From Prorocentrum cordatum (lineage: Eukaryota > Sar > Dinophyceae > Prorocentrales > Prorocentraceae), in contig CAUYUJ010022538.1 in assembly GCA_963575745.1 (NCBI GenBank), positions 58,210 through 122,209 of the forward strand: DNA of 64,000 nt, written 5' to 3'. A model generated the notes under the pieces. It saw only the letters and a program-made list of their open reading frames with translations. It ran no database searches and was not told the origin of the DNA. This document shows, in pieces, positions 4,618-51,772 of this stretch. Within the stretch, counting starts at the first letter, position 1; each line of letters starts with the position of its first letter. Position numbers and translations under genes: made by a program.

Positions 4618-5642
4618 TTACTCGGATCCCATTTGGTAGGTACTTATGGCTGTCTCACCCGTCCAAAGTTCACTCAAAATCTGTCCCTGGACACCTGGCT
4701 GGGTCCATCCTGACCCGTTTCTCGAGGCGGATCCAGCCGTGGCGCGACGCGAAGCCTCCAGGCGGCCCACCAGAAAGGACCAAAAACGCCGGACTGAGGG
4801 GCCGCAGCTGTCTCGACTGGCCCTTCTCCGAATTAGAAAGGCCTGCCGTCGAAGAAGCCCCCGGCTCTCTATTACTAGACAGTAGGCTTCTCAGAATCTT
4901 AGGACGCCCTTGCTTTCTAAGCCTTAACCCCCTGCCCCCGCCACGGGCAACGACAAGCGGGAACTGGCCCAGGGTGGGAAACGTCGATCTGGGACTGGAC
5001 GTGCGACAGATCGGCGATAGACCCCGATGGCGAATCCGCACGTTGCTGTGCGGGGCGGGCCTTCGGGCGCTCGGGGCTCGATGCAACCCCCCCTTGCTTA
5101 GCGCTGCCCCTGCCCTGCGCACACCGCCATGCGACGGGGGAGCCAACGCAGCCTCTTCCCGAGCCGCCGCGCCGCCGCTTCGCCGGGTCACCCGCCCTGG
5201 CGCGCCGCCGCGTGGCGTGCGCGCAGCGAGGCCGGCACGGGCGGGCGGCGCCTGCGCGCCGACGAGGCCGGCGGGCCGACAGTGCCGGCCGACAATGCCG
5301 CTGGCAGCCGTCGGCGGCGGCGGCCCGCGGCGGCGGCGGCCGGCCGGCGACGGCTGGCTGCGGCGGCGGCAGCCGTCGGCAGCGGCAGGTCGCAGCGTGC
5401 GGCGGCGGGCGCGCACGGAGGCGTCGGCGCCCCGAGTTCTCGCGCGGGCGCGGGAGCACCGAGGCGTGGGGAGTACAAGACTCGGCGGCACGCCGAGGGG
5501 GGAATGCAGGTGGCTCGGAAGGCTCAGAGCCTCCAGCCTTCTGAGAGGCTGTCTGGGCTTCCTCCGAAGCCCCGCCGCGTTCTGAGAAGGCCTGCCCACT
5601 TTCACTTACTGCCCTCGGCGTGTCGCCGAAGTACGGCACAAA

Positions 5643-5815
5643 CGCGCACTTTTGGAGGTTCGCGCGGATTTCTTGGACCGCTGCTGAAACCCCTGCCACA
5701 GCGCGCGGAACGCGCCAGGGGGGTCACATAACCGTCAGGAGCGGCGCCTCAGGCGCCGCCAAGGAGATCCAGCGCCGATCGCCGATCTGAGAAATCCGCG
5801 CACACTATACACAAA
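5643..5815 (-). mobile_element. introner-like TIR element with 6-bp direct repeat
   Basis: GCGCGGATTTC at 5662-5672 is the exact reverse complement of GAAATCCGCGC at 5791-5801. A central hairpin, GCGCGCGGAACGCGCC, lies near 5701. The element is flanked by CACAAA at 5637-5642 and 5810-5815. Removing one repeat plus the element joins the minus-strand codons for MRYFV and PYFGDTPRA in frame, and that short exon is followed by a GTAAGTG donor-like site near 5610. This is what an intron created by transposon insertion should look like. Size about 173 bp. Confidence 0.7.
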
Positions 5816-6524
5816 ATATCTCATCGTGCCGATTTCTTGCTCGAGACAGCAGCCCGAGATCAGATTTTCACGCAGGCGCAACCGCAAACACGATGAAGAT
5901 CGCAGCTGCCAATCTGCTGTTGACCGGAGGCTCCGTCTGAAATAGACCTCTTCGGAGGTCGGCCAGAAGAACAACCAACAAGCGAGGAACCGGGTGACAA
6001 AAATGGTGAACCAACGACTGAACCAACCCATCAAGAAAACTATGCGACAAGACAACGGGGGGTGGGCTCCCGACTCGGCCGCCATCTCCCCTTGCGACCC
6101 AATTGTCCTGGTCGCCCGCCCCATACACAATTCCACAATATGAATACCGCTCTCCTCTCTCACCTGACTCTGTTCGGAGTGTGTCCCGTCCTCTCCACGT
6201 ACTGATTTTTACACACAAGATTTCATTACGTAGTTTTCCCGACGTGTTTTTTCAATCCGGTCATGTCTAGTTCCAACGTAGTGCTCCCGCTGCAGCGCCG
6301 ACCTCATTTCTACGCTGCGGTCATCCAAAAATCGTGCTACCGCTGCAACGCTGGCCTCGTTCCCGCGCCTCCGGACGGCACTTGGCATTCGAAAGCGCCC
6401 GCATCGGGCAAGCACGGTTGCGGAGGACATGGGGCCGGCATCCCGGACAGGCCCTGTCCTCTCGTAGACGGGCCGCTTACCCTCCAAGTCATCGGGGGCC
6501 ATGTCACGGCGTGCAATGCGACTC

Positions 6525-9485: not shown

Positions 9486-9507
9486 CTTGAGCCAAAACGG
9501 CTACGGA
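9486..9507 (-). ncRNA. relict dinoflagellate spliced leader, one mismatch
   Basis: On the minus strand the 22 bases match the known dinoflagellate SL (DCCGUAGCCAUUUUGGCUCAAG in established literature) with D=T and one A-to-G change at the base before the T run. It is not an SL RNA gene: no donor GT or SL intron part follows. It is the 5' end of a retroposed mRNA. Confidence 0.8.
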
Positions 9508-19684: not shown

Positions 19685-19925
19685 GAGGGGGGGGGGGGGG
19701 CGAAATTACCTGACTAATTAAGTGCTCGCCACCCCCCACCCCTGCCAGCCCTCAGGAGAGAGGGGGTGGGGACAGGAGAGAGGGGGGGGGAGAGGGGGGG
19801 GGACAGGAGAGAAAAGGGGGGACAGGAGAGAGGAGGGGGAGGGGGAAGAAGAGAGGGGGGGGGACAGGAGAGAGGGGGGAGGGGGGACAGGAGAGAGGAG
19901 GGGGGGGGAGAGGAAAGAGGAGGGT
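19685..19925 (-). repeat. pyrimidine minisatellite at the 3' end of the retroelement
   Basis: On the minus strand, units of CTCTCCTGTCCCCCC with variable C runs, about ten copies. The same unit recurs at 34875-35050 and 35617-35660 on the other side of the six-ORF element. The plus strand is G-run rich and could fold as G-quadruplex. Confidence 0.85.
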
Positions 19926-20379
19926 TTTTGTTTGACTGCACTTGGCTCGTTGCAAGTAGCTTGAGCTGGGTGGCCGAGGTCGGCCAGGCGGCAGACAGAG
20001 CCCGCCTAGCGGGCACAGCACAGGTTCTCCGCTCCTGGTCCGTCCGCAGGCAAAAGCGATTCTTCGCCATTGGACCTGCATGATGGGCGGGGGAGGTATT
20101 GGCACCGAGGGGGAGGGAGAAGGAATGATAAGAAGAGAGGGGATCGGTGCCGTGCGAGATACACTGAGCGCGCCATCTAGGCGTTGCCCTATGCGGGCAG
20201 CTCTGAAAGACCGGGAGCAGCAGAGCTGGCCTCAGGGACGGCCATCTGGGAGCATGGCTTAGCCATGAAAATGAGCGGGATGAGTAGGAGGAGGGCCAAA
20301 ATGGCCTTGCCGCGCTGTGTGGCGGCCGTGGCGGAGCGGACTAGGAGGGAGAGGCCGGCGTTGCCGCCAAGAGTCTAGG

Positions 20380-22145
20380 AAGCCCCATCGGTAACGCACG
20401 TGACCGGAAAAGGGGGCAGGTGAGAGAGCGCCTGTGCTGTGCTGGGCGTCATGGAGTAAACGGGGTATGAGGGGAGGGATCAACATATGGGAGGGAGAGG
20501 GACTATCTTGTCCAGCCAAGCAACGCTAGGGCGCAGTAGCTGTCAGTAGAGGTACGCACCTCTGACAGCCAGCATTAGCCGAGAATTGCTCGGCAGGTGG
20601 GATGTACTAGGGCGGCGTTTTTGCTTGCCGCAATATCGACTCAGCCGTGGCGAGTCTGCGAATTGCGCTGTGAGCATTGAGCCGACCGCTCTTCTGGTAG
20701 CGTGGCTGCTTAAAAGTGTCGCTATGGCCTGGCCGCAATGCAGCGGCAAGAATGTGTGAAGCTAGAAACTGGTGCTGGCTACGGCAGTTGAAGCTGGCCC
20801 TCGGGATGGGGCAAAAGAAATGAACTGAAGGGCCCGCTGCGACGAGACTGCAGGACGGCTCGGCCGACCTTAAATTGGAGCTGCATAGCTCCTCAGCTGG
20901 TGAGATACGGCTCGTGTGGCTGGCTAGGGCTATCTAGGTGGTGGGCTGCCGATGTAAGCAAAGACTAGGGTATTATGCTAGCCCACCACCTATGAAGACC
21001 CAGCCGTGGCGAGTCTGCGAATTGAGCTGTGAGCATTAGCCGTCCGCCTTTCTGATAGCGTGGCTATTTAAAGTGTCGCGTTAGCTGCACTAGTGCGGCA
21101 CAGAGGTGAGCCGATAATTGCTCGGCAGGTGGGATGTACTGAGGCGGCATCTTTGCTTGCCGCAAGCCAGGAGACTAGCAAGCCCCATCGGTTACGAGTG
21201 TGACCGGAAAGGGGGCAGGTGAGAGAGCGCCTGTGCTGCGCTTGGCGTCTTGGTGTAAACGTGGTAAGAGGGGAGGGAAGAACAAATGGAGGCAGAGGGA
21301 TTATCTTGCCAAGCCAAGCAACACTAGGGCGCGATAGCTGTCCGTAGAGGTACGCACCTCTGATGGGCAGCCTTAGCCGAGAGTTACTCGGCGGGTGGGA
21401 TGTGCTGCGGCGGCAATTTTGCTTGCCGCAGTATCGACTCAGCCGTGGCGAGTCTGCGAATTGCGCTGTGAGCATTGCTCTGACCGCTCTGCCGGTAGCG
21501 AGGCTGCTCAAAAGTGTCGCTTTGGCCTGGCCGCACTGCTGCGGCAAGAATGTGTGAAACTAGAGACTGGTGCTGGCTACAGCTCTTGCAGCTGGCCCGC
21601 CTCTGGATGGGGCCGAAGAAAAGATCTGAAGGGCCCGCTGCGACGAGACTATAGGACAGCTCGGCCGGCCTTAGATTGGAGCAGCATAGCTCCTCGCTGG
21701 TGAATTTACGGTACGTGTGGCTGGCTAGGACTATCTAGGTGGTGGGCTGCCGATATAAGCAGAGACTAGGGTATTAGGCTAGCCCACCACCTATGAAGAC
21801 TCAGCCGTGGCGAGTCTGCGAATTGAGCTGTGAGCATTAGCTGTCCGCTCTTCTGGTAGCGGGGCCAACTAAAAGTGTCGCGTTGGCTGCACTAGTGCGG
21901 CAGAAAGGTGTGAAGCTGGAGACTGGTGCTGACTACGACTTTGCAGCGGGCCTTTGGCGTGGGGCTAAATGAAAGAATAGCTGGGCCCACTGCGACGGGA
22001 TTGCAGGTCGGCTCAGCCGATCTTAAATTGGAGCAGCACGGCTCTCCAGCTGTAAACATTTGGCTCGTGTGGCTGGCTGGGGCTGTCTAGGTGGTGGGCT
22101 GCCGTGGTGAACCGAGACTAGAGTATTAGGCTAGCCCACCACCTA
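20380..22145. repeat. ~800-bp tandem repeat with perfect inverted repeats
   Basis: CCCCATCGGTAACG at 20383 and CCCCATCGGTTACG at 21183 mark units 800 bp apart. Each unit holds two copies of CAGCCGTGGCGAGTCTGCG (near 20644, 21001, 21440, 21803). A perfect 13-bp inverted repeat, TAGGTGGTGGGCT / AGCCCACCACCTA, with a 30-35-nt loop occurs at 20935-20992, 21736-21793 and 22088-22145. It lies directly 3' of the last ORF of the minus-strand element, so it may be a 3' UTR or terminal repeat region. No coding signal. Confidence 0.85.
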
Positions 22146-22215
22146 TTATTTGCGCCAAGGTCGCCCTTGTCGACCTTGGATGTCGCCGGCTGGGAGGTAG
22201 CACACTAGGGCCCGC

Positions 22216-22605
22216 TCATGCACCGCGCGGCTGCCGCGCGGCCGCCGCCGCCGCCGCTCGCGCCCGGGCCTCCAGCAGCATGGACTCGACCTCTGAGATG
22301 GTCGCCAGGCCTGGAGCCTCTATCCATTCCCAGTCCCAAGTTTCGACGACCTGGCCGTTGATGACGTCGAGGGACTTGAGCTTCCACACGAACGGGTAGA
22401 GCATGCCGTTTGGCATCTTCCATTCGCCAGGGTACGTAGCTGGCCACCATTTCTTGAACTCCCTGTTGGCGGCAATGTACTGGGAGCCCTGCCATGCCGA
22501 GCCCGAGTACGCGTCGCCTGATAGGCCGACGAACTCGGCCGCGGCCTCCTGCGGGGGCGTGGCCCCCTCAGCCGCCGCCGAAGCGCGCCCGACCGCAGGA
22601 ACCAT
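22216..22605 (-). CDS. accessory ORF6 of the minus-strand element
   Basis: 129 residues from ATG at 22605. The middle is protein-like with several aromatic residues (FKKWWPATYPGEWKMPNG, then YPFVWKLKSLDVINGQ), and the C-terminus is Ala/Arg-rich. No family recognised. On the minus strand the ATG is preceded by a CCCCCTCCTCTC tract ending in CAG at 22624-22622, the same arrangement as for ORF3, ORF4 and ORF5. The start chosen is the first ATG after that site; an upstream in-frame extension exists but crosses the pyrimidine tract. Stop at 22216 is followed at once by the tandem 3' repeats. Confidence 0.45.
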   Translation of the reverse strand: MVPAVGRASAAAEGATPPQEAAAEFVGLSGDAYSGSAWQGSQYIAANREFKKWWPATYPGEWKMPNGMLYPFVWKLKSLDVINGQVVETWDWEWIEAPGLATISEVESMLLEARARAAAAAAARQPRGA

Positions 22606-22702
22606 GGCTGCGCTGCGCGCTCTGAGAGGAGGGGGAGTGCGGAAGGAGCGAAAAGAAGTAGCCCATAAGCCAACGGCCATATATGAGTGAAACCTAGCTG
22701 GC

Positions 22703-23125
22703 CTATGCGTGCGCCTGAGTGAGGAGGACCCTCCTGATGGGCCGACTGATGCATGCTTGGCCCGGTGCTGAGTCGATAGGGATGAGGATGGTTCCGCTGC
22801 GCATGTTGACTCGCGGCGAAAGGCCGGTGCGAAAAGGTATGCCCGTGCCGAATAAAATGGACCGCGCATCGGTCTCCTGAAGAATGGGGAGGTGGAAAAA
22901 GCGTGGCCTCTCCACTGAAGATGGCAGCCGGGTTTCCTGCCCGTGGAATTGCTCCATTAGGAGTCCTACATTGATGGGCAGCGGAGACCAGAGCGGAATG
23001 TGACCTGCCGTGATCACTACCAGCCACTGTACGACTGTAGGCTGCGGTGGCACGGCCTCAGCGGGTGCGCAGCGGACGTCGCCGTGCTCGAATTGCGGCA
23101 GGTGCTGCGCCTCTGGGGTCGGCAT
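22703..23125 (-). CDS. accessory ORF5 of the minus-strand element
   Basis: 140 residues from ATG at 23125. It contains hydrophobic and proline-rich stretches (VVQWLVVITAGHIPLWSP) and no motif I can name. The ATG sits four bases after a CAG (AG at 23130-23129) that ends a C/T-rich run. Spacing to ORF4 is about 310 bp, with no other coding signal between them. Could be an exon instead of an independent ORF, but it has its own ATG and stop. Confidence 0.45.
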   Translation of the reverse strand: MPTPEAQHLPQFEHGDVRCAPAEAVPPQPTVVQWLVVITAGHIPLWSPLPINVGLLMEQFHGQETRLPSSVERPRFFHLPILQETDARSILFGTGIPFRTGLSPRVNMRSGTILIPIDSAPGQACISRPIRRVLLTQAHA

Positions 23126-23437
23126 GGCCTGAGGGGCTAAGGTTCAGGGAGGCGGAGGATTCGAGAGAGGTAGGACAACGGAAGGCAAAATGGCCGCACC
23201 AGGATCATGGCCTGGAAGTCAATTAGGATGGGGCTGCCAGCAGCTGCCTCCTCCACAAGACGCTGAGGGATGAGAGCAGGCTGTTCCCATGCCCCCGTGT
23301 GGAGGAGGGTCCAGAAAAATCTGGTCGGGCATGTAGACAGTGACCAAACTTATAGCGGGTGAGAAACGGGCAGCGTAGGGGCCTTCACCCGCTGCGCGCT
23401 GAGGGTAAATGTGGAGTAAGTTGGGAGAGTTGGCCTC

Positions 23438-23839
23438 TTACCAACGCCCATACCACCGCTCGACTGTGTGATTGGCGACATCGGGCAAGTCCATATAGAG
23501 CTCTGGGCCTACGGTAGCACGGGCGTGCGGCAGAGCAGGCGGCCCGCTCTCGAGCTGCCATGTAGCTTGCCATTGGGGTACCGAGGCAGGCTGGTACACA
23601 GCGGTAGGAGATAGCAAAAAAGCGCGGCGCCTCGAGCCGCCGCTGAGAAAGCGGAAGACCTGCCGGTGGGCCAGGAGAAGCCCCTCCGCCAGGCACTCCC
23701 AAAAGGGCCATGCGCTGCGAAAGTCTGGGGGCAGCCGCTCCATAATGCGGAGCAAATCTAGGTGCCTCCCCGGGGCCGCTTCAGCAGCGGGCATGTCCTC
23801 GTCTGCGTCGGCGTTGCCCAAGGTGCTGAGCTCGCGCAT
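23438..23839 (-). CDS. accessory ORF4 of the minus-strand element
   Basis: 133 residues from ATG at 23839. Protein-like composition (ERLPPDFRSAWPFWECLAEG; PELYMDLPDVANHTVERW), no family recognised. It is preceded by a long pyrimidine tract ending CCCCCCACAG with AG at 23847-23846, seven bases before the ATG. The terminal TGG TAA looks like a GTAAG splice donor at first glance but is the stop codon. Confidence 0.5.
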   Translation of the reverse strand: MRELSTLGNADADEDMPAAEAAPGRHLDLLRIMERLPPDFRSAWPFWECLAEGLLLAHRQVFRFLSGGSRRRAFLLSPTAVYQPASVPQWQATWQLESGPPALPHARATVGPELYMDLPDVANHTVERWYGRW

Positions 23840-23935
23840 CGTGGCCTGTGGGGGGAGAAACGAGGGAAAGGAAGCTGAGAGAGGTAAGGAGGGAAGGGGT
23901 AGGCCTGGGCTGAATTACAGCTGCATGGCGTAGGC

Positions 23936-25018
23936 TTAACGCCTGGCGGCATCGCCTCCTTCATGAGGCTTGCGCGGCCGCCTGGGAGAGAGGCGCTGAC
24001 CGCAGTGCGAGAGGCTTTCGCCTTCTCTTAACTGAAGTTTGAGGCGCTCCCTGTGTATCCTGTCGATACGGAGCTGGTCCTGCCTATGCTCCTCTTTGAG
24101 CTGGGCAATCCTATTCTCGTGCGCCTTGAGGACTGTACTGCGCTGCTCGTCCGATGCTGCGTCTGGCGCTTCGGCAGGCGAGTGCGAGTGCGGAGCAGCA
24201 TGGGCAGCACGGCGAGACTTGCGAGCCTTATGGTGCCTTGGAGGAGGAGAGGCTGGAGGCGAGGCCGTGCCGCGGAATGCCTGCGAGCTGCTTTGAGCCT
24301 CGGCTGGTCCGCGGCGCTGTGGCGCCGGCTGCTTGAGTGCACTCTTGCGCGGCTCCGTGCTTCGGCGCGAATTGTATGGCACCCTAGGGGCTTTGGCCGT
24401 GAATTCGTCTGTAAATGAGACCTGCTTGCGCTTGCGGGTGGCAGAGGCGCGGGGCACTGCTGGCTGTTCAGCTGGCTCAGGAGAATCCTGCGGGGGAAAA
24501 GGGGAAGAGACAAAGGAATATGAGGCATCGTCTACCTGCGCAAGCCTCCTAGGAAACGCAGGCGAACTGGAGGCCCTGCGCGGCTGACGCCTGTGGGGGG
24601 CTGCAACTTTGCGGGATTCGCGCGGAAGTGGAGGTGAGGGACGCGCAGCATGGGGTGGAGAAAAAGGAGAGGCGGCCTGGCCGATCCAGCCTTCCGGGAT
24701 GGCGGCTTTGGCCTTCGCTGTGGGATGATCAGGGGGAGGCATGGGGGGCATGGCGCGCGGAGGTGGCGGAGGATGAAAAGTGGCTCCATAGATGTGCCTG
24801 CCGCGTCCCACGGGGGGGCCGTTGAAATCGCCAGGTGGGCGTGTGGGACCTGAGGCTGAGGGAGTGCTAGACAAGGAGAGCTGCACTGCCTTGGCTACCT
24901 GGGCGAACTGGGCAGGTGAGAGCAGGGGGGGAGGAGCTGAGGCTGAGCGAAATTGGCCCGGTGGCGGATGCCTGGGTCTGGCCTCGCGAGGCACCAGCAC
25001 CCGCGGCCTTCTGGACAT
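23936..25018 (-). CDS. accessory ORF3: proline-rich protein with basic C-terminal helix
   Basis: 360 residues from ATG at 25018. Long Pro/Ser/Arg-rich region, a basic cluster (TRKRKQVSFTDEFTAKAPR) that could be a nuclear signal, and near the C-terminus a charged helical segment (LKAHENRIAQLKEEHRQD) likely to be a short coiled coil. No catalytic domain. A CCCCCGCCCCGCAG acceptor-like site (AG at 25061-25060) precedes the start. Function unknown; the composition resembles structural or nucleic-acid-binding retroelement proteins, which is inference only. Confidence 0.5.
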   Translation of the reverse strand: MSRRPRVLVPREARPRHPPPGQFRSASAPPPLLSPAQFAQVAKAVQLSLSSTPSASGPTRPPGDFNGPPVGRGRHIYGATFHPPPPPRAMPPMPPPDHPTAKAKAAIPEGWIGQAASPFSPPHAARPSPPLPRESRKVAAPHRRQPRRASSSPAFPRRLAQVDDASYSFVSSPFPPQDSPEPAEQPAVPRASATRKRKQVSFTDEFTAKAPRVPYNSRRSTEPRKSALKQPAPQRRGPAEAQSSSQAFRGTASPPASPPPRHHKARKSRRAAHAAPHSHSPAEAPDAASDEQRSTVLKAHENRIAQLKEEHRQDQLRIDRIHRERLKLQLREGESLSHCGQRLSPRRPRKPHEGGDAARR

Positions 25019-25083
25019 GTGCCGCCTGCCTATATGTCGAAGATGCCGGCGTTGAAGTCCTGCGGGGCGGGGGAAGCAGGATG

Positions 25084-28000
25084 CTACATGTGAGCGAAGG
25101 TAAGGCCAGTGAGCGGGACGGGGCGCGCCGCTTGGCGGGCACGCTCGGCCCTGATTTGTCTGGCCCGGTCCCGATTGCACTGGATGCGCCTTTTCTGATC
25201 CAGAGTTAGGGAAGGAGGGGGCGGCGGCGGAGGGAGAGTGGAGGGAAAAATGGGGGCTGTGCCCAAAAAATGCGCGGCCTCTTGTTCCGCCTCCGAGTCC
25301 TGATCGGCAGGGCCAGGCGTCTCGGGAGCCTCCGATGGGAGGTCGCTATGGCGGCGCCACGGCTCGGAGGGCCTGGTCGGAGCCAAAAGCCTGCGGAAGC
25401 GATCCAGCTCCCCATCCACTTTAGCTCGGGTGCGAGGGGCAGAGGGGTCAGCGAAGTCAGGACCTAGCCAAAAATCGCTAGTCATAGATGCAGAGAAACG
25501 GAGGAGTGGGGCCAGAATGGCAGGGCCCGCCTGGGGGGGAAGGTCCTGTGGGTCTTCGGCAAATGGCAAAATGACGTCTTGGCATATGGCCTGGGCGAGG
25601 CATTCACAAAGGGCAGAGGGATAGGTCTTTTTTGTCTGCCGTGAAAAAGCGGTCATTCTCGTCCTTGCCTAATAATGTGCGATGCGCCCCCCGTGGGTGC
25701 GTGCACTTGGCCCCTTGGGGGCGGTTGAGTAGGAGCAAGGGGAGGGAAGGGAGGCGGAGCGATAGCAAGCGCGTGGGGGCCTTGCCAAATTCGCTAGGAG
25801 GACGGCAAGGCGGTTGAAACATGCATTGGTCGAAGTCAGTGGTGCGGACAGCCGGGGCAGCAGCCAAGGCCATTAGGGGCCTCCACATACAGCTAGGCTG
25901 TGCTCTGGGCTCCCAGTGCGCGGGGCATGGGTGTTCCATCCAGGCCGAGGTACCCATGTCTAGGTGTGCGGCAAATAATAGGACCAACGAGGCGAGAAGC
26001 AGGTTGGCTATCTGCAATTGGCGAGATTGCTTGGGCGTAGCGTTGGGGATGCCCCAGTAATGTTCGATAGTGCGTAACGGCGGGGGCCCGTTGGGCTTCC
26101 AACGGGCCGCGCAAAAAGTTTCGCAAGGCGGTCCTCCGCCTGAAACAACCACTCTGCCAGCATAAATATGATGCTGCCATAGCTTGATGGTCTCCGACTT
26201 GGTGAGATCGCCCGTGTCAGGGTCGATGGCAATGTCGACCGACAGTATGTAAACCTCAAGCGAGGGAGTGGGCGCGAATGATTCCAGGTGGTGCTGGATA
26301 TCACCTTCGCGCCTGCGGCCAGAAAAAAGGTTGAGAATAAAGATCTCCTTGCGCCTGATGCGCGCTGGAATGTCATTAGTCGCTAGACCGGTGTAGTCTT
26401 GCGGTTGAAATGGCCATTCGGGCAGCGCAGGGAGAGGAGGAGGCTGCGGCGGAGGCACGTCGGCAGGAAAAAGCAGTGTAACGGCTGCTGGGTCTAGGGC
26501 GTAGTCGGTGACTGCCATTATGGCGCGGGCGTCCGCTTGCGATAGGTGCTTGGCAAAGTCTCGAAAGTGCTGGGTGGTAGCGCGCTTGGCACGATGTGCC
26601 GGTAATGCCACCCGCCAACGCCCTACTCCTGATTTCACTTGGAGCTTGGCATTTTCGCAACGCTGCATGGCCAGCGAGGCGATTTGCTCCTGAGGCAGGC
26701 GTTGAGAGTGACAAAGAAGGTAGAGAGCACAGATGAAGGAGCCAAAACAGAGATGTTGCATGAGACTGGCACGGGAGCCAAAAGGGAGGCTGCAGGCAGG
26801 GCAAACCGCGGTGTCGGGTACCAGGCCCTTGACCCGATGGGACAAGGTCCAGTGCATCTGGGCCACATGCTGCTTTAGCCCCCGAAATTTGAGAAATGTG
26901 CGTGGGCACCATGGGCAGGTGAGCACAGATGGGTAGCGTGCTGCCAGGCGTTGCTGCTCGATCGGATGCTGTACATGGTCCGTCGGCAGGGGGATCCCGC
27001 AGGGCACGGAGATGGCAAAGAAGTGCTTAGCGGCGGCCTCGGCGAGTGCTGCGCGTGCGAAGTGCTGGGCCCCCGCTGTAAGGGCATTGCGAACTCGGCG
27101 CTTCCATCCGGTGTGGGATTGGAGGGCAAGGGCCCCCCATTGGTCCAGGTGAGAAACTGGCGAGGGCATTTGCGCGAGATTGGCGGAAAAATCGCCCAGC
27201 CATTGTAAGTCCTTCTGTACCAAAGCGAGCCATGAGTCTGGGACGTCCGCGGCTAGCGTGGCAAGGAGGGAGATGAGGTGGGGAGGTCCCGTGCGGAGGA
27301 GGCGGCCAAAGAGGCGCAGCCGCATTGCACTAAATACCTGCGGTAGGGGGGGTCTGCCGACTTTGGCCAAAACAAAGGAGTCGCGCTCTGCTGTGCTGTC
27401 GCACCTTGGGAGGTGGAGCAAGCGCCTGTACATGCGCATGAACTCTCCCTGGAGGGTGACGATTTGCGGTCCAGTGAGCAACGGCCAGACTGCGGCATTG
27501 AAAAGACGGGAGGAGAGGATAAGGGAGTCCAGTAAATGCAGGTGCTCGTGCAGCCACGTACTGGAGGAGTGGCGCAAAAATTGACGAGCAAGATTGCGCC
27601 AGCTGGGGGCCGCCTCCGGTCGCCTGTGGGCGAGCTCGGGGCCTATACTGCCCTTTTCGTCCAAATGTGTGCCTAGGTATGTGTAGATTCTGGCGAAGTG
27701 AAGGGAGAATGGCTTATGCCCGAGGGCAGGTGAAACTAACATTTGCCCATTGAGCCCTTGGGGGTCCCAGAGCTTGCGGCGAAGGGATATGGAAGCTTCC
27801 CCTCTAAACTGAAAAAGGCACATAGTTTTGTTAACTTGAAAGTTGAGCTTGATACCGGAGAGTGCGTAGGCCTCGACTATGATGGCCATTAGCACGGGCA
27901 TGGCGTCGAAAAGCTCTTTAGTGGGCCCGAGGAAGGCATAGGCACCATCGTCGAAAAAGCACGACTCCAGGTAGTGGTGCACATCCGTATCGGAGGAGTC

Positions 28001-31000
28001 CAAGCTGTCCTTGTGGTGAGCGTAAAAAGATCGTGGAGCAGCTTTGTCCACCTGGACCTTGAGGATAAGATGGGCAAGCGGCAAGTCTGTGAGCTGTTTA
28101 ACAGCTTCGTTATTAGCTCGGGCCATGAGGAAGTTGAAAAGAACGTCCCCGAGCTGCTGCCCTGGAATGGTACCTCGGAGCGTGAGAGCTACCCCCGAGG
28201 CGCCAGGGTAAAAGGCCCAGGTGCGCTCGTATGCAACCGAGATTTGGGCATGGAGGTGCGAGGGGAGGCCAGCCTCCTGCAGTATGGGAGGGGCAGAGAG
28301 CAAATGTCGCATTAGCTCCTCGCCTGTCTCTTGGGCAAGGTCAAGGGAAGAAACAAGGTAATATAAGTCAGCTTGTTGCGAGTCGCAATAAAATATGAGC
28401 TGTCGGAGGGCCCTGTAAAAGGCTGAAACTGCATTCATAAATATGTACGCGGAGGAAGTACGCTGGCTGGTCGCATAGGCCTGGTGCGCTAGGACCGTGA
28501 GCGTGGCAAAGTCGGTGCCTCGCCCAGCAATGCCGCCAGACTGGGCGGCGCCTGCCATGGGAGGGAGATATTCTACCAGTTCTTTTCGCAAGAGGGCTCG
28601 ATGCCGCTTGGAAAAGTGAGGGGGCGCCATTACTGAGCGGGAGTTGGCCATGATGGCTGGGTTGCCTTTACCTTTAAAAATGTCGAAATTATACCCTCCC
28701 CGCCATGCCAGCGGTTCCTCAAGGCGCAACTGCGCCTTAAGGTGGACCGGGTAATACTGCTTTGCTAGTAGGCGGTGAAACGACTTGACAAAGGCTCCTT
28801 TGAAGCCGTCTACGCTGGCTGCAGAGTCAGGGGTCCTGGCATAGGCGCGCTCAATTTGCGCTAGGGTAAAGAGTGAGTAGGGGGGGGGGGGAACATTCAC
28901 AGTGAGATCGGCGGGCAGATACGATGCACTAGCATCGTAGGCCTTGGCTTGCTTGAGCGGGATGACTGCACCGTGCTCTTGTCGGGCAAAGTGGGAGAGC
29001 CAGGTGTCGGCGGCCTGAGTGGCGTCGACGACGAAGGTGCCCGCTGCTGTGGAGAGTATAGGTAGGGGTGAGGTGCGTAGCTTCTTTTTAGAGCCAACGC
29101 CGAGCGTGCGGAGGCGCGCAAAGGCAGTGCGCTGTTGTGAGGTCTGCCATGCTTCGTGCACTTCGGCGGCAATACCTTGCAGGTGAAAAGAGGCGTCCAA
29201 GTCGACGGAGCATCGGACTGCCTGCGTGAATTGAGCTAGGATGATAGCCCTTAGGGCGCTTGCGCGCGCTCGTAGGTGAAGGGCGGCTGCATATGCGGTA
29301 CCTATGGTAGGGGCGGAGCAGCCGTGAGGAAAGCGGGTTTGAGCAACGCGTATGGGAGAGACCGCCAAAAACTGGTGCAAGCAGGCCATGCGCATCCGGG
29401 GCTTCCATGTAATGGAGGCGTTAGGGCCCGCCATGCTAGCTCGCATGCTGCGTAGGGCAGCACCGAGCTCCGCAAGCGTGGCGAATGCGTTATTGACTGC
29501 GGGCATCAGCGAGCGCTCGTCGTGGTGGAGCAAGGCGGCTTGGGGACGGGTAAAGGCTTGCCTGGAACGCAAATATCGCTTCCAAGCCGCGATAGCTACC
29601 CGCAATAAAAGGTTGCACGCCTCTCGTTGCAGGGTGTTGGCCTTGCTTATGGTCAAGGCTCTGGCATCCATAAGCACGAGGGTGGCCATGGAAATGCGGG
29701 AGTTGGTAGGTGCGCGGCCTGTTGCCGTGCGGGGTTGGGGGAATGCCTGTAGCATGGCGTTACGCGCCTCCCGGTCAAGGATGAGCGCGTGGTCAGAGGC
29801 ATGTAAGTCGAAGGTTAAAAGTTCGGGAGGGGGCTTAAATGTGTCTTCAAAAAGCTGCCTGGCCGTCGGGTCGAGGTACGCTGTAGGGTCGTGCGGGATA
29901 CGCATGACCTGGCATCCCTGATCCTCGGTCGGGCGCAGCTGAAGCTTGAAGCGGCAAGATAGGCACGGAGCAGCGTGGTCTAGTACAGCGAGTGCCAAGG
30001 TAAGGGAGTACTTGACCTCGCACTCAGTGGCTGAGGCGCCTACTGGGATAGCTATGTAATCCCTGCGCTTCCAATGTTGTTTGAAGGCGGGGTCGCGAGC
30101 TGGCGCAATCCACGTGCCCGATCCCATAGGGTGGGGCACAAAGGTGGCTGGAAGCCAGAGATTTGAGGCGAGTAGGAAGCGATGAAAAAAGGAGCCAGCA
30201 GTGTTGACCTGCTCCGCATGCTGTGGGCCGATGGCCGCTGATGTTTGTGTGCCTACTGCAGCATTGGAGTCCATGAGGACCAGAGTGGGAGTGGGCTGCG
30301 GCAAAATATGGTCATGCACATGTCGAAGGTGCTGCCACCATGCGGCCTGCTCATGGAGAGGACGACCGGAATGGTGAGCATGCGCCACTAGGATGCTGAA
30401 GCGTAGGCCGTTCTGACTTATGACGGCCGCGATGATTCGCGGGTCTTGGTGTACAATGCGCACATTATGCGACTTTATAGGAAAAGTGGGGATGCCTTTG
30501 GCATTAGGAAATACGGGCGTGCTAAGGTTGACCCAGAGCGCGCAGCCGCAAGCATGAGTACCCGCTTGCGACTCGGACAGAAAAACTATGTACGGGGGGA
30601 CTTGGCGTTTGCCAGAGCCCTTGGCGTTGACTCGCGTTTCTTGCATACCTATAACATCGAGCCCATTGCGTTGAAAGGCGGCGGCCAGCTGATGTAGGCG
30701 TCCTTTGACGGCCACACCCGTGAGTCTGGCTCTTTGGGAGATGCGCGATGCAGGCGTGAGAGAAAGAATGTTGGCTGAGGCTAGCCTGAGGCAGCAGGAT
30801 GCGGTGGCGTCTGCGATAGGGGTTGCCTCCTCGGAGAGACCTGGAAAAACATCAGCGAGCGAGGTGCGGGGGGGGAGAGGAGGATTAAGGCTGACCTGAT
30901 GGTTAGGCGGGTAAAGGGCGCGCTGTTGCTGGGGAAGGCATTCCAGCCAGAGCCATTCCAGGATGCGCGCATTGTCCTGGAGAAAACTCATGAGGGGTGG

Positions 31001-31658
31001 GGGCGAGGGAGGAGGGAGCACTGCGAGGGAATAAAGTCTGGCTACCGTGTCAACAATTTCGTTGAGTGGGTCTGCCTGGTGACCGTGCACGTGCTGCCAT
31101 GTAAAGCGACGTTTCAGACCCAGGACCTTGCACAGACTGTCAAGGCGACTTCTGTGCTCTATGAGTGGCTCGGCCACAGTACCGCCTTGGGCGGTAGAGA
31201 CCACGCCCATGTTGTCTGAGTGAAAGGTGAGAGGAACGGTGGGAGGAAGCGGGGACTGAAGGGCCCATAGCGCCGCCCAGGTGGCGGCATCGAATTCTGC
31301 TTTGGCAGAGACTCTCGTTGCTCCTGTCATCTCCGGTGTGGGACACCCGAGGAAGCCGAGGAAGTGACGAGTGCCGTTGCCTTGCAAAGACCAAAAAAGC
31401 CCATGCTGGCGGGCCAGCGAGATCTCCTTTGGAGGCCCCTCCACTGGCGTCGGTGTATATATCCGCGGAGTCGAAAGCCGCGTAGGGTGTGTCAAAGGCG
31501 AGGCTGTGCCATGTAGGGAGTGAGGAGGAGTGGAGGGCGGGAAAAATGGCATCAAAATCCCTGACCAGCTGGATGGAGGTAGCCGTGAGAACCGGTAGCA
31601 TCCATCCCATGGGCGGGAGCGGGCTGCGACGTATGCCTTGTCGTCTGCCCAGGTTCAC
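25084..31658 (-). pseudogene. ORF2 polyprotein: RNase H, endonuclease, RT, C2H2 fingers, methyltransferase-like
   Basis: About 2,190 codons, minus strand. Domains in order: RNase H (IYTDASGG at 31457-31434; AEFDAATW; TFHSDNMG; HGHQADPLNEIVDTVA, to about 31030); endonuclease/exonuclease/phosphatase fold (SANILSL; GMQETR; LVLMDSNA; RRDYIAIP; LDHAAPC; about 30790-29950); reverse transcriptase (about 28900-27700) with motif C CFFDDGAYAF (Asp pair 27953-27948) and GTIPGQQLGD; two C2H2 fingers (CPWCPRTFLKFRGLKQHV; CPACSLPFGSRASLMQHL; about 26920-26750); then a Rossmann/C5-methyltransferase-like domain (FILNLFSG near 26335; SGGGPPCETFCAAR near 26130; MEHP near 25930). Defects: RT motif A reads FMNAVSAFY, with Asn (AAT, 28435-28433) where Asp is expected; frameshifts near 31378 (inside RNase H) and at the A6 run 25637-25642 (TADKK then TYPSALCECLAQ in the next frame). 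Its GTG start overlaps the ORF1 stop (GTGA, 31658-31655). Confidence 0.85.
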
Positions 31659-34021
31659 CCGTGGGCAGTGTCCAGGGGGGCGACCTGAAAAACCGTGCCG
31701 TCGCGCGCTGCCTGGGCCAGGTCGTCCTGAGCAGCCTGTGCTGCGTGGGCCTCGGCTTCGGCTCGAAGGTCCGCTGCCTCTGCGTCTGCCATTGCATCGG
31801 CGAGACAGCGGGAGGCAGCTGTGGCGGGGTCCCCTGCACGGGACGTCAGCTCGGCCTCGGCTGGCGCTCGCCTGGGGCGGCGGGAGCCGCGAGGGCTCTT
31901 GCTGCGTGCCGCCTGCTTGCCTTCAAAATCTTCCTCGCTGATGCCTGAAAGCGTGCGCTCGTCGGCCTGACCCGCGCGCGCAGATCTGCCCCTGGCCTGG
32001 GCGCTTGCGCTGCGGCGTGAGGATGCCATGGTGACTGGCTCCCCTTTATCATCAGAGAGGTCCCATCCGAGCTGGCTGGCAGAACGGGTAGGCGGGGGCA
32101 GTTCGTTAGGCTCCCCTACGGAAGCTGCTGCTGGGCTCGACTGGTTGGTAGTGGCCTCTCCTGGTGGCGCAGTGGTGGACGCCTCCCCTGTCGGCGTCTC
32201 GGGCACTGGCGCTGGCCCAGGTTTAGGCACAAAACCTAGACGGAAAAGCGGGCCCGCTTTGACGGGAGCGCGGGCTTGTTCAGAACCTGACGGTGCGGTG
32301 GCCCCCCCCCGGGGCGTGGCACCGTGGCTAGAGACGGCGGCTGGCACTAGTTGCCCGGCCTTGATCTGTGAGGCTAGGGTGTCTACTGCATTGCGCATGG
32401 CCTGGGCCTGGGAGTCAAAACTTGCCTTGATGGTCGCTACCTCCCTGGCCATGGCCTCGGCGTTGCTCTGCATGGCCGCGGCGAGTGAAGTGATGCAAGG
32501 CTGTTCCAACCCTTGGAAGCCTGGGAGGGGCGCGGGGCATTGGAGGAGCGGAGGGGAGGGCGGCGCGGCAGTGAGGGGCGTGGCCGTTCCTAGGTCGGGC
32601 GTGCCGTCTCGATCTTCGCCCGCGTGCGATGCAGAGAGTGCCGCAGAGCGCTGCACTGCTCCAGGCTCGACCGCCGCCTCCCCCATCATGGGCGAATCAG
32701 TGATGGCAGCGATTGGCGGCGCCTGCGATTTGAAATAAGCTAGTAATGCAGATGCCTGGCTGAGGTCCGCTTGCGCGGTTTGAAGGGCCAGGGCGAGGTT
32801 GCGCACGTGCTCCTCTGCCTGAGCTTGCTTAGCAGCCAATTGCTCACAATCGGCATGCAGAGAGGCGACCACGTGCTCTTGCTCGCTAATCTTGGCTAGC
32901 GGATCCCTCGCATTGGCCAATTGAAAATTAACTAATGAAATCTCCTTACGGATCTCGGTGATACGCATATCGGAGTGTCCTAGGAGGGTTGAGGCCCTGA
33001 GCTGCAGGATCAGCGCATCCTTGCCCATGGCAAGGGCCTTGCGGTGCTCCAGCAGGCGGTCGGGCTCTAGCGGGGGATAAATCCAGGCTGAATGAGAGTG
33101 CGCCTCGTCTGGGGTGAGGATAAGGCATTGCGCTGTGAGCTCTGCTACTGAGAGCTCAGTGGCAGGATCCAACGCGCCGAGAGAGGAGAAGGCTTGGTCG
33201 GCCATGAGGAACGGAGACTGCTGCACAGAGGCAGGGCCGAAGAGTGCGGGGGAGGTGGCCTCGCCTTCGGGAGGAGGCGCAAAAGGCGAAGGCTGCGAGC
33301 GGGGAGACTGCCCGATGACTCCCGTGTCCTTGGCGCCGTGCGGGGTGCCAGGGGCCTTTGAGGCGGGCTGCCCCCCTTCGCTGCGCTGGGCCTCACGGGC
33401 CCTGCGAGCCTCGTCCTTCCCCCGCTTCTTGCGCTCCTTGCTGGAGAACACTTCTGGCTGGACCGTGTGGTCTCCTGGGGGTGCGGGGAGTAAGCCGTAC
33501 TCCGCTGCCCATGCAGCCACCTGGTCGAAAGATGGCGGATTTGACGGAGCATGGCCTTTGCCCATGTGTGCCCCACCCGTGCTTCCAGAAAAGGAGCGTG
33601 GGCCCTTGTGGCCCGGCCATGGGCCCGCACCTTGCAGGGGCTTGTGCTGCTCCTGACCTTTGGCGGGGCCGGGTGTCGCCTGCTGGGGTCCTGCCGCCCG
33701 AGTCGGAAAACAGGTGGGGCATGAAACGTCAAAAGTGGTATTGGCCCGGCCGCACTGCAGGCAATACCAAAGCTCGGGAGGGGCGCTGCCTTTCTGGTGC
33801 ACTGGCTGCTGGGGGGGAGGAAAAAAGTCAGCAGGCAGGCGCGTGGCATATAGGGACGGAGAGGGAGGAGCAGCCATACGCTGCGTGGGGGAGGTAGCCA
33901 TACCGTGCTGCTGCAGCCCTGACGTTGGCGAGAGAGGCGACGCGCGAGGCGGGGGCAAGGTCGTGGGGACAGCGCCTTGCTGCGGGAGGCCCTGGAAAGA
34001 GTGGTGGTGAGAGAGCATCAT
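31655..34021 (-). CDS. ORF1 of the retroelement: zinc-ribbon and coiled-coil protein
   Basis: 788 residues from the first ATG (34021) after a strong acceptor-like site. Visible parts: Pro/Ser/Ala-rich N-terminus; a RanBP2-type zinc ribbon (WYCLQCGRANTTFDVSCPTC, Cys-X2-Cys-X10-Cys-X2-Cys); Lys/Glu-rich middle; a long helical segment likely to be a coiled coil (EIRKEISLVNFQLANARD, then EQEHVVASLHADCEQLAA); and an acidic/basic C-terminus. ORF1 proteins of LINEs are usually RNA-binding with coiled coils, which fits. It ends in TGA overlapping the ORF2 start. An in-frame extension to 34312 exists but crosses the polypyrimidine tract (34225-34260) and is unlikely to be translated. Confidence 0.7.
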   Translation of the reverse strand: MMLSHHHSFQGLPQQGAVPTTLPPPRASPLSPTSGLQQHGMATSPTQRMAAPPSPSLYATRLPADFFPPPQQPVHQKGSAPPELWYCLQCGRANTTFDVSCPTCFPTRAAGPQQATPGPAKGQEQHKPLQGAGPWPGHKGPRSFSGSTGGAHMGKGHAPSNPPSFDQVAAWAAEYGLLPAPPGDHTVQPEVFSSKERKKRGKDEARRAREAQRSEGGQPASKAPGTPHGAKDTGVIGQSPRSQPSPFAPPPEGEATSPALFGPASVQQSPFLMADQAFSSLGALDPATELSVAELTAQCLILTPDEAHSHSAWIYPPLEPDRLLEHRKALAMGKDALILQLRASTLLGHSDMRITEIRKEISLVNFQLANARDPLAKISEQEHVVASLHADCEQLAAKQAQAEEHVRNLALALQTAQADLSQASALLAYFKSQAPPIAAITDSPMMGEAAVEPGAVQRSAALSASHAGEDRDGTPDLGTATPLTAAPPSPPLLQCPAPLPGFQGLEQPCITSLAAAMQSNAEAMAREVATIKASFDSQAQAMRNAVDTLASQIKAGQLVPAAVSSHGATPRGGATAPSGSEQARAPVKAGPLFRLGFVPKPGPAPVPETPTGEASTTAPPGEATTNQSSPAAASVGEPNELPPPTRSASQLGWDLSDDKGEPVTMASSRRSASAQARGRSARAGQADERTLSGISEEDFEGKQAARSKSPRGSRRPRRAPAEAELTSRAGDPATAASRCLADAMADAEAADLRAEAEAHAAQAAQDDLAQAARDGTVFQVAPLDTAHG

Positions 34022-34221
34022 TGCGGCTTTATGCACTCTTAAAAGTGTGCGGGCGTTTGCGCGCTGTTTGCGCGCTCTGCGATGATGAGCGGGCTCGTCG
34101 CGAGGCCGCTGGGGGTAGGAGGGAAGAGAGTAAGCAGGCGTCGCGCCTGGCGGGTGGCGGCCCTTTCGGGCGTCGCGGCGGGGATCGGCGCGGAACCGGT
34201 TTGCTAACCGCTCGAGCCAAA

Positions 34222-34262
34222 CCTGAAAGAGGAGGGGGGGGAGGGGGAGAGGGGGGGGGGGG
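34222..34262 (-). promoter_or_regulatory. polypyrimidine tract plus CAG, likely trans-splice acceptor for ORF1
   Basis: On the minus strand an almost pure C/T run of about 35 bases ends CTCCTCTTTCAG with AG at 34224-34223. It lies about 200 bases before the ORF1 ATG. Similar tracts with CAG precede ORF3, ORF4, ORF5 and ORF6. Confidence 0.6.
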
Positions 34263-34389
34263 CAAGCTAGCTGCGCTCGCGTCATATCTGACGTCCTACC
34301 CCTCCCTCCCATCCCTTACCATGGCGCTGATTTTCTCTATCCGCGGACGCGTGTCGTAGCGGACTTGTGGCTCCGCGCGCGCGTGCGTA

Positions 34390-34562
34390 GTGGGTGGTGG
34401 TGCGCGTGCGTGCGTGCGTGCGTGCGTGTGTGGTTGTGGTTGTGGTTGTGGTGGTGGTGGTGGTGGTGGTGGTGGTGGTGGTGGTGGTGGTGATGGTGGT
34501 GGGTGGTGGTGCTGGTGGTGGTGGTGGTGTGGTGGTGGTGGTGGTGGTGGTGGTGGTGGTGC
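34390..34562. repeat. (GGT)n microsatellite
   Basis: GTGCGTGCG run followed by more than 40 GGT units with rare TGT and GAT variants. A shorter allele is at 35178-35302 in the second monomer. Confidence 0.95.
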
Positions 34563-34874
34563 GGCGCGGTGGTGGCGGGCGGATGGGCGCGCGAGAAAGA
34601 GGCCCGCGCTGGGGCGAGAACGCCATCCTGAACGACGGAGGCCAAACACCGATCCGAAAATGAGGCCCACGCTGCAGCGGGAGCACGATTCGGAACGATT
34701 CGGGAGCAGAAATGAGGCCGGCGCCTCAGCGAGAGCAGCATTTTAGAAAAAAAACACAAGCGAAAACCCAACTCCGGGGAATCCTGTGTGTAAAAAAACA
34801 GTACGCGGGGGGGTGCCGAACATCTTCCGGACGCCATCAGGGGAAGTGGGAGAGTAGTATTCATATTGTGTAAT

Positions 34875-35050
34875 TGTACAGGAGAGAGGGGGGGGGGCAG
34901 GAGAGAGGGGGGAGGGTGGGGGAAAGGAGAGAGGGGGGACAGGAGAGGGGGGGGGAGAGGGGGGGAGAGGGGGGGGTAGAGGGAGGGACAGGAGAGGGGG
35001 GGGGGGGGGAGAGAGGGGGGGGGAGGGGGGGAAAGGAGAGAGGGGGGGGG
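34875..35050 (-). repeat. pyrimidine minisatellite at the 5' side of the retroelement
   Basis: Minus-strand units CTCTCCTGTCCCCCC / CTCTCCTTTCCCCC with long C runs. Same unit as at 19685-19925. Confidence 0.85.
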
Positions 35051-35664
35051 CAAGCTAGGTGCGCTCGCGTCATATCTGACGTCCTACCCCTCCCTCCCAT
35101 CCCTTACCATGGCGCTGATTTTCTCTATCCGCGGACGCGTGTCGTAGCGGACCTGTGGCTCCGCGCGCGCGTGCGTAGTGGGTGGTGGTGCGCGTGCGTG
35201 CGTGCGTGCGTGTGTGGTGGGTGGTGTTGGTGGTGGTGGTGGTGGTGGTGGTGGTGGTGGTGGTGTGGTGGTGGTGTGGTGGTGGTGGTGGTGGTGGTGG
35301 TGCGGCGCGGTGGTGGCGGGCGGATGGGCGCGCGAGAAAGAGGCCCGCGCTGGGGCGAGAACGCCATCCTGAACGACGGAGGCCAAACACCGATCCGAAA
35401 ATGAGGCCCACGCTGCAGCGGGAGCACAATTCGGAACGATTCGGGCGCAGAAATGAGGCCGGCGCCTCAGCGAGAGCAGCATTTTGAAAAAAAACGCAGG
35501 CGAAAACCCAACTCCCGGGAATCCTGTGTAAAAAACAGTACGCGGGGGGGGGTCGGCTACTTTCAGGCCGCCATCGGGGGAAGAGGGAGAGTAGAATTCA
35601 TATTGAGTAATTGCACAGGAGAGAGGGGGGAGGCAAGAGAAAGGAGAGGGGGTGAGGGGAGCGG

Positions 35665-49486: not shown

Positions 49487-49508
49487 CTTGAGCCAAAATG
49501 GCTACGGC
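49487..49508 (-). ncRNA. relict dinoflagellate spliced leader, perfect 22-nt match
   Basis: On the minus strand the sequence matches the full 22-nt dinoflagellate spliced leader with D=G, ending in TTTTGGCTCAAG. It is followed by a non-SL sequence and then the retropseudogene ATG 90 bases downstream, so it is the fossil cap of a reverse-transcribed mRNA, not an SL RNA gene. Confidence 0.9.
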
Positions 49509-51614: not shown

Positions 51615-51772
51615 AACATGAGCTTTCGGGATCCCTCGCTCAGATGTCTTCGGCCGGCGCTGGACCCCCCTGCCCCAGCGCGCGGAGCGCGCCTGTGGCG
51701 ACGCAGAAGGCGCTGTCAAGGGGACACATCGCCGATCCACGAGATCCGCGCCGACATCCGAGTGTTTATGGT
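51615..51772 (-). mobile_element. introner-like TIR element (copy in duplication 2)
   Basis: Same sequence as 4030-4187, including the GCGCGCGGAGCGCGC hairpin and the right end GAGATCCGCGCCGACATC. Left boundary approximate. Confidence 0.5.

Follow-up and report, generated by a model that had tools for sequence, protein, structure and literature searches.

The window analysed here, a stretch of 64,000 nucleotides from Prorocentrum cordatum, contains a copy of what is, on the best explanation of the data and with high probability, a 14.3-kb, six-gene family of dinoflagellate LINEs that builds a splice-acceptor-like YAG site on landing and that, in some copies, has used templates trans-spliced to the host spliced leader (SL). 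The window copy occupies 14,300 nt of the minus strand (19925..34224), the strand to which all features below belong, and its six co-directional open reading frames (ORFs), running from 34021 to 22216, were all found in the ORF list where the first-pass annotation had placed them. By its LINE-type reverse transcriptase (RT), APE-type endonuclease, target-site duplications, 5' truncation and A-rich tail, the element is a non-LTR (LINE) retrotransposon.

Copies, boundaries and insertion of the element

In the 4.13-Gb dinoflagellate assembly that contains the window, an ORF2 probe detected 40 scored copies with 94-100% identity, and 74 exact element 5' ends were found, compared with none for the reversed-pattern control, so the element recurs beyond chance. 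The mapping of copy boundaries, recommended in the first-pass annotation, relies on the junctions of many copies and on the target-site duplication; it puts the ends of the window copy at 34224 and 19925 (5' end AGGTTTGGCTCGAG; 3' end ...GTGCAGTCAAACAAAAA), between two 12-bp copies of CCCTCCTCTTTC, the 5' one at 34225..34236 and the 3' one at 19913..19924. The outer bounds proposed earlier were too wide, given that the junctions and target-site duplications assign 34.24-35.62 kb and 19.69-19.91 kb to the flanks. The tandem repeats at 34.24-35.66 kb were considered as a LINE promoter array and rejected, since copy comparison and junctions place them in the flank. Other tandem repeats, with units of about 350 and 800 bp, lie inside the element, in its 3' untranslated part (20366..22146); one unit apparently is missing in some copies. 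Of 21 direct-repeat families, 20 were listed, and none of these is common to both ends of the element. The 3' junctions that were read show a short A-rich tail after CAGTC.

Where definable, the duplications at insertions are 10-12 bp long, and an exact repeat of at least 10 bases flanks 13 of 17 copies compared with 20 of 272 mismatched flank pairs. The four copies that have no exact 10-base repeat include two of the six leader-bearing copies discussed below; the 3' flank was read for the duplication test in three of these six, with an imperfect duplication in C13407, none in C15533 and a repeat consisting of pyrimidines only in C16473. In many copies, the target duplication sits in low-complexity sequence. 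The insertion pattern, with target-site duplications and pyrimidine-rich DNA, is that expected of target-primed reverse transcription.

The 5' junction and the spliced leader

Copies of the element begin with AG|GTTTGGCTCGAG and adjoin pyrimidine-rich targets: the pyrimidine content is at least 80% in 50 of 58 junctions, against a background of 1.9%. The terminal AG (34223..34224) is not part of the target because the 3' flank continues differently. Given that the inserted unit itself begins with AG, insertion beside a pyrimidine tract makes a YAG site resembling a splice acceptor at the 5' edge, and landing there may rebuild such an acceptor. Of 60 junctions, five have all 21 nt of the spliced leader placed between target and element, exactly at the AG; one further junction carries a mutated leader, and the remaining 54 have AG only. 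Within the 5' end of the element, TTTGGCTCGAG (34211..34221) is identical in 10 of 11 positions to the end of the dinoflagellate spliced leader (TTTGGCTCAAG) and is, judging from this similarity, probably an old leader relic. The 3' part of the dinoflagellate leader is printed in PMC12014239.

The full leader fused at the AG in 5 of 60 junctions implies that SL-trans-spliced element RNA served as the template for some copies; with AG only at 54, trans-spliced templates are a minority or else the AG has another origin. The presence of the leader at the tip suggests that the element exploits host RNA splicing for expression and copying. In the mechanism that we propose, read-through host transcription followed by SL trans-splicing at the AG would yield a capped element mRNA, and acceptors ahead of ORF4-ORF6, possibly also ORF3, could provide these genes with mRNAs of their own, whereas the AG-only copies would most likely stem from RNA starting at that A, through either a start site or a cut. 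ORF4 is preceded by pyrimidine tracts with a terminal CAG (23846..23907, AG at 23875 and 23846), and ORF6 by one such tract (22622..22654, AG at 22622). The shared upstream signals invoked in the first-pass annotation correspond to such tracts with a following AG; if those with a pyrimidine content of 80% or more that lie no farther than 100 nt away are counted as strong, three of the six ORFs are preceded by one compared with 11% of random positions, an enrichment that is suggestive only. A genome search for retrocopies with the leader joined to the start of ORF4 or ORF5 returned a single pattern match, which is unrelated.

Taken to its full extent, this mechanism would make the element a promoter-poor retrotransposon built on host trans-splicing, in which landing in pyrimidine tracts lets the terminal AG restore an SL acceptor with each insertion, one polycistronic RNA is cut by SL addition into mRNAs for ORF1-2, ORF3, ORF4, ORF5 and ORF6, and the SL-capped RNA becomes the next template; we put forward this extended version tentatively, as one that falls just short of being probable. 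Rather unlikely is the reading in which splicing is incidental: the pyrimidine preference could reflect the specificity of the endonuclease, without any role in splicing, an internal promoter at the first A would make the normal RNA, and SL-bearing copies would be rare accidents akin to host retrogenes. Position-specific transcription starts are usual for LINEs, and the 54 of 60 junctions with AG only, together with the lack of partial leaders, fit this reading. Host retrogenes with leader relics are, moreover, common in dinoflagellates according to PMC12014239 and PMC6050394. Incidental splicing accounts less readily for the completion of an acceptor by the element's own AG beside the target tract in most copies, for the further pyrimidine-AG sites ahead of ORF4 and ORF6, and for the older leader-like relic within the 5' end. 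It is improbable that the AG of the AG-only copies represents the last two bases of a leader left after incomplete reverse transcription, such that nearly all copies would derive from trans-spliced RNA: the leader does end in AAG, and the leader-element junction lies exactly there in five copies, but a range of partial leaders would then be expected, and none was found among the 58 pattern-exact junctions. Nothing pointed to an HDV-like ribozyme at this end of the element: none of the three weak Rfam matches (E <=5), in a database of described families only, is to a ribozyme family, and the folding energy is not unusual.

Proteins encoded by the element

ORF1 (788 codons; 31655..34021) is open and shows codon-position-3 bias among copies; the predicted protein contains a motif resembling a RanBP-type zinc finger and a weak match to SKA1 under the cut-off. 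The domain order in ORF2 is RNase H, APE-type endonuclease, LINE-type RT, C2H2 finger and C5-methyltransferase-fold domain; Pfam and profile searches confirmed all these domains as annotated in the first pass, and added the finger. ORF2 is broken in the window copy: its start, with the N-terminal half of RNase H (DIYTDASGG; 31290..31610), is out of frame with the remainder, the main open stretch comprises 1982 codons (25604..31552), and, after a second frame change near 25.64 kb, the C-terminal tail, recognized through the relative P0118, lies in another frame with one in-frame stop (25030..25656); a close relative runs on to about 25.03 kb. The first part of ORF2 shows no codon-position-3 bias (5/22). 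The endonuclease domain (30275..30778) matches PF03372 above the cut-off (E 4.9e-6). The RT core (approximately 27800..28770, with the FFDD motif near 27.95 kb) was identified by profile matches, a profile of the window ORF2 and four relatives matching the R2 RT at 8.1e-16 and L1 ORF2p at 2.6e-8; in Pfam, RVT_1 was matched at 2e-6, just under the cut-off, in the relatives P0001 and P0002, with no match in the window ORF2 or the relative P0003. The C2H2-type finger (26849..26926) is weak, below the Pfam cut-offs in the window, and is supported by the profile of relatives; a C2H2 regular expression missed known fingers, and its count was set aside.

The C-terminal domain of ORF2 (25607..26380; motifs LFSGRRREGD, GPPCETF and EHP) shows the C5-cytosine methyltransferase fold. 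The catalytic Cys (motif IV) is present in 99 of 99 and the Glu (motif VI) in 99 of 100 aligned sequences, the window having both; the G-G of the classical motif I is R-R in this domain. The curated cut-off of PF00145 was not reached: 16 of 100 sequences match at E <=1 (best, 0.004), and the window domain not at all. By sequence, this is a diverged family below the PF00145 cut-off, and the domain might modify the element's own nucleic acid. Pattern matches to this domain in viral_contigs yielded no confirmed relatives.

ORF3 (360 codons; 23936..25018) encodes a proline- and serine-rich protein without a known family. ORF4 (23137..23839) has about 230 codons in relatives and in most copies read; here a stop (23438) and a shift of frame break it, and its 133-codon open stretch in the window (23839-23438) is a truncated form, so that, of the lengths given in the first-pass annotation, those of ORF3, ORF5 (140 codons; 22703..23125) and ORF6 (129 codons; 22216..22605) stand and that of ORF4 does not. 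ORF6 lies inside a 217-codon open stretch, the upstream part of which does not score as coding. Codon-position-3 bias is seen in ORF3-ORF5 and is absent from ORF6 (9/28); the count for the short ORF3-ORF4 spacer is 6/13. In a codon model, the ORF frames are the best-scoring of the three sense frames, and ORF3 and ORF5 do not rise above unrelated open stretches (77/129 and 38/129 score as high). Homologues of ORF4-ORF6 are present in other sequence sets. None of ORF3-ORF6 matches Pfam, nothing significant was found in PHROGs (three matches at E 0.06-0.5), and ORF4 and ORF6 have no significant match in PDB; pattern matches for ORF6 in viral_contigs, and those of the genome_contigs search (A4), gave no confirmed relatives. 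A structure prediction for ORF4 from three sequences (mean pLDDT 40) was set aside, as were the tblastn piece count for ORF3, since the intact window ORF3 itself appears as three pieces, and the tag search for ORF3 and ORF5, where changed start letters caused most copies to be missed.

Unrelated open stretches 100-236 codons long are numerous in the region, and ORF length alone therefore could not prove the element. Homology extends from ORF2 through ORF3-ORF6, in the same order, in all ten copies read through the region, at different loci, and none ends before ORF3, although these copies were taken from the top matches of a single ORF2 probe and divergent or ORF3-less copies may be under-sampled; 5' truncation occurs among them, homology ending at window position 29073 in C17941 and at 27140 in C21136. 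Because all ten copies carry the block, with target-site duplications around copies, ORF3-ORF6 are integral parts of the retroelement, as the first-pass annotation had supposed; they may be expected to serve it. A virus-like or virus-derived element with ORF3-ORF6 as structural proteins is very improbable: several small novel ORFs downstream of a polymerase gene are in keeping with it, but the PHROGs, Pfam, PDB and viral_contigs results and the insertion in LINE fashion, with duplicated targets and truncation of some copies, speak against it, points that do not address the folds of these proteins. That ORF3-ORF6 form a distinct cluster of host genes, with a two-ORF LINE merely lying upstream, as the unidirectional clustering of dinoflagellate genes and the lack of significant matches of ORF3-ORF6 to known families might suggest, is rejected by the same ten copies, which hold the block in one unit bracketed by target-site duplications, and is almost certainly wrong.

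Relationship to known elements and implications

One or two ORFs are the rule in LINEs; R2 and L1 share the LINE-type RT (profile matches to solved RTs) and are not known to have an N-terminal RNase H, a methyltransferase domain or ORF3-ORF6. The single-ORF relatives P0001-P0003 (2362-3343 aa), known from protein alone, share the order RNase H, endonuclease, RT, C2H2 (two of them with a Pfam match to the RT domain, two with one to RNase H) and the C-terminal methyltransferase-like domain, although P0001 stops after the beginning of this domain; they differ in that a long N-terminal region in the one ORF replaces the separate ORF1. Trypanosomatids, like the host of the present element, transcribe polycistronically. 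The L1Tc/ingi elements, marked by the 5' Pr77 signature, are likewise LINEs in an SL trans-splicing host and, according to PMC8190864 and PMC4035085, rely at the 5' end on a promoter and an HDV-like ribozyme, whereas the Rfam matches here include no ribozyme family. Dinoflagellate leader-relic retrogenes also arise when reverse-transcribed trans-spliced RNA leaves the leader in DNA but, according to PMC12014239 and PMC6050394, are host mRNAs copied in trans, in contrast to an autonomous element in which the leader occupies a fixed position where pyrimidine-rich targets meet the element and its own AG. SymbioLINE-Dnmt of Symbiodinium (de Mendoza et al. 2018, PMC5890265) is a dinoflagellate LINE with endonuclease, RT, cytosine-methyltransferase domain and target duplications; its methyltransferase, found with PF00145, usually resides in ORF1, which precedes the RT ORF, whereas the present element has a diverged domain at the ORF2 C-terminus, an N-terminal RNase H, four further ORFs and, in some copies, a spliced leader at the 5' end. 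Among the titles and abstract openings listed in searches of the mainly open-access literature, neither ORF3-ORF6 nor autonomous LINE copies that bear a leader are described.

Four additional conserved proteins without a known family travel with a LINE, and the C5-methyltransferase-fold domain in ORF2 has another position, and belongs to another sequence family, than the one published in ORF1. As physical evidence, the junctions show that an autonomous element can have its own trans-spliced RNA as template, and they suggest a way for a parasite to remain expressed where the genes of a genome lie in unidirectional arrays. The retroelement that makes leader-tagged dinoflagellate retrogenes is called unknown in PMC6050394; the family described here is a candidate for the machinery behind these numerous retrogenes.

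Copies, limits and state of the element

The window is dinoflagellate nuclear DNA, as shown by an exact dinoflagellate spliced-leader sequence outside the element, and belongs to an assembly that totals 4.128 Gb in 21,875 contigs. A search of this assembly with a 1-kb ORF2 probe yielded 181 candidate copies; 40 of these were scored, at 94-100% identity, and 10 of the 40 were read across about 20 kb where the contig permitted. An ORF scan of the window recovered all six ORFs in the places where the first-pass annotation had put them. The assignment of ORF3-ORF6 to the element, proposed there as well, is borne out by the other copies: in all ten, homology extends from ORF2 through ORF3, ORF4, ORF5 and ORF6, in this order, and into the 3' repeats. 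The common 5' end is reached by eight of the ten, and in the other two (C17941 and C21136) homology ends at window positions 29073 and 27140, respectively, in a manner that resembles LINE truncations. The 3' terminus was located in eight of the ten copies, the remaining two entering N or meeting the contig end, and in all ten of a further set. Mapping of the boundaries from 5' and 3' junctions of several copies (nine 5' junctions and eight readable 3' junctions beyond the window's own) places the limits of the element at 34224-19925, on the minus strand.

The window copy is flanked on both sides by the duplicated target CCCTCCTCTTTC. Among 17 copies with both flanks, nine have an exact repeat of 10-12 bp and four more a repeat of 14-21 bases, the latter because the target site is a TC repeat; one repeat is 7 bases long, and three copies have no exact repeat beyond 4 bases. 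With 5' flanks paired with 3' flanks from other copies as the control, repeats of at least 10 bases occur in 13 of the 17 true pairs versus 20 of the 272 mismatched pairs, and those that also contain at least one purine in 5 of 17 versus none of 272. The flank directly upstream of the element consists of a two-unit tandem repeat (34225-35658; units of about 740-790 bp, 87% identical), and the element adjoins its pyrimidine-rich edge.

In the window copy, ORF2 is interrupted by frame changes near 31.29 kb and 25.64 kb and by an in-frame stop near 25.08 kb, and ORF4 by a stop at 23438 and another frame change. Given that ORF2 is open along its entire length in at least one other copy, and that ORF4 forms one open piece in nine of ten others (eight under a stricter scan), the window copy belongs to a family that was active recently and is itself slightly decayed. 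The alignment breaks across the 3' repeats (20366-22146) in several copies, as if one unit were missing, so this part of the element may recombine or slip; at the gathering cut-off, Rfam gave no match to these repeats. Elsewhere in the window, a 2.8-kb direct repeat (3502-6328 and 51087-53918; 99.4% identity, 47.6 kb apart) represents a recent duplication.

The 5' junction and the spliced leader

The first junction sample comprised 28 5' stretches (8 + 20) besides the window; eight lacked the 5' anchor and one ran off the contig, leaving 20 readable junctions including the window's own. The pattern AGGTTTGGCTCGAGCGGTT has 74 exact matches in the genome, and its reversed form has none. Among the 58 of these 74 loci that were read, four carry the complete 21-nt dinoflagellate spliced leader (SL) directly ahead of the element and 54 carry AG only, none of the latter matching more than one additional leader base. 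Two additional copies lie outside the exact pattern, one with the complete leader and the other with a mutated one. The 3' flank was read for three of these six leader-bearing copies: the repeat is pyrimidine-only in C16473 and imperfect in C13407, and there is none in C15533, the copy with the mutated leader.

The last 30 nt of flank are common to the locus pairs L067/L092, L071/L091 and L070/L094 (the last a simple repeat), and independent insertion events may therefore be fewer than the junctions counted. In each of the first two pairs, the copies share their 5' flanks exactly and come from different contigs; they represent duplicated loci or redundant contigs.

In 50 of the 58 junctions (two of the 58 being partly N), pyrimidines make up at least 80% of the 40 nt ahead of the insertion; the same is true of 1.9% of random window positions. 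The AG belongs to the inserted unit rather than to the target, because the 3' flank after the duplication, where this can be defined, does not continue with AG. The 5' end of the element is fixed, and its first two bases complete a YAG beside the pyrimidine tract.

Leader sequences also occur outside the element, on the minus strand of the window, one exact and one with a single mismatch (49487-49507 and 9486-9506); their flanks are, by eye, not pyrimidine-rich, and they are probably retrogene relics. At another locus (L099:1-45), two leader-like copies in tandem precede unrelated sequence, a known sign of repeated retroposition.

Coding content and the methyltransferase-fold domain

Substitutions among copies fall at codon position 3 above expectation in ORF1 (86/179), the two main parts of ORF2 (195/381), ORF3 (43/97), ORF4 (30/65) and ORF5 (15/30). 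No such excess was found in ORF6 (9/28), the short first part of ORF2 (5/22) or the 3' repeats (25/93, four copies), and the spacers (6/13 and 2/5) are both too short for judgement. The counts include every distinct change a single time; their P values are simple binomial ones that ignore relatedness. A protein search that covered ORF4, ORF5 and ORF6 detected relatives of them (two, one and two, respectively) in other sequence sets, at about 72-91% identity.

In Pfam, the main frame of ORF2 matches the APE-type endonuclease PF03372, weakly C2H2 fingers, and, at E 0.046, the C-terminal half of RNase H, whose N-terminal half is in a different frame immediately upstream. A profile of ORF2 and four relatives retrieved R2 RT, L1 ORF2p, RNase H and zinc fingers among solved structures. 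Three single-ORF relatives (P0001-P0003, 2362-3343 aa) show, in alignment, the succession RNase H, endonuclease, RT, C2H2, methyltransferase-like domain; two of them match RNase H and two RVT_1 in Pfam, and P0001 has no more than the beginning of that last domain. In P0001 and P0002, the RNase H/RT ORF also has a long N-terminal region in which a domain around WYLHH is repeated several times; this region occupies the position where the window element has a separate ORF1.

Of 7994 candidates scored, 138 are relatives of the C-terminal domain at E <= 0.001; the 120 of them that were listed (P0005-P0124) form a large C5-methyltransferase-fold family, mostly unnamed and nearly all without Pfam assignment. 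A simple pattern found the Cys motif in 117 of the 120, and the motif Cys and Glu are almost invariant in the family alignment. Pfam's own methyltransferase model scored weakly, in 16 of 100 family members, and a PDB sequence search found no match to the domain or to its profile. One relative, P0006, has a confident core in its predicted fold, and in each comparison of this model with known structures all of the best 50 matches listed were C5-methyltransferases or their complexes. The N-terminal RNase H and C-terminal C5-methyltransferase-like domain that had been read from the sequence of ORF2 are confirmed.

Copying, expression and relation to known elements

All features tested assign the element to the non-LTR class; it is copied in LINE fashion, duplicating its target, and inserts at pyrimidine-rich sites. 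Compared with the methyltransferase-carrying LINE already published for a dinoflagellate, its methyltransferase domain has another position and comes from another sequence family, RNase H is N-terminal, and additional ORFs are present. Host retrogenes with relics of the leader are known; among the papers that literature searches listed, none describes, in its title or the beginning of its abstract, an autonomous LINE with leaders at a fixed junction, or the ORF3-ORF6 set.

The leader-bearing copies demonstrate that trans-spliced RNA served, at least sometimes, as the template for copying. In a read-through RNA, the AG of the element would act as an SL acceptor, yielding a capped ORF1-ORF2 mRNA. 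Internal pyrimidine tracts may play the same role for the downstream ORFs: for three of the six ORFs, a tract with 80% pyrimidine or more is found no farther than 100 nt from the start, compared with 11% of random positions. These tracts are 96-99% conserved between copies, no higher than the surrounding ORFs, and a genome search for the leader joined to the start of ORF4 or ORF5 gave one match, which is unrelated.

The CpG observed/expected ratio is 0.84 in ORF2 versus 0.89-0.90 in the flanks, a gap too small to argue from. PMC5890265 proposes self-methylation of the new copy for Symbiodinium elements, and by analogy it is a reasonable guess that the methyltransferase-fold domain of the present element would likewise methylate its own new copy.
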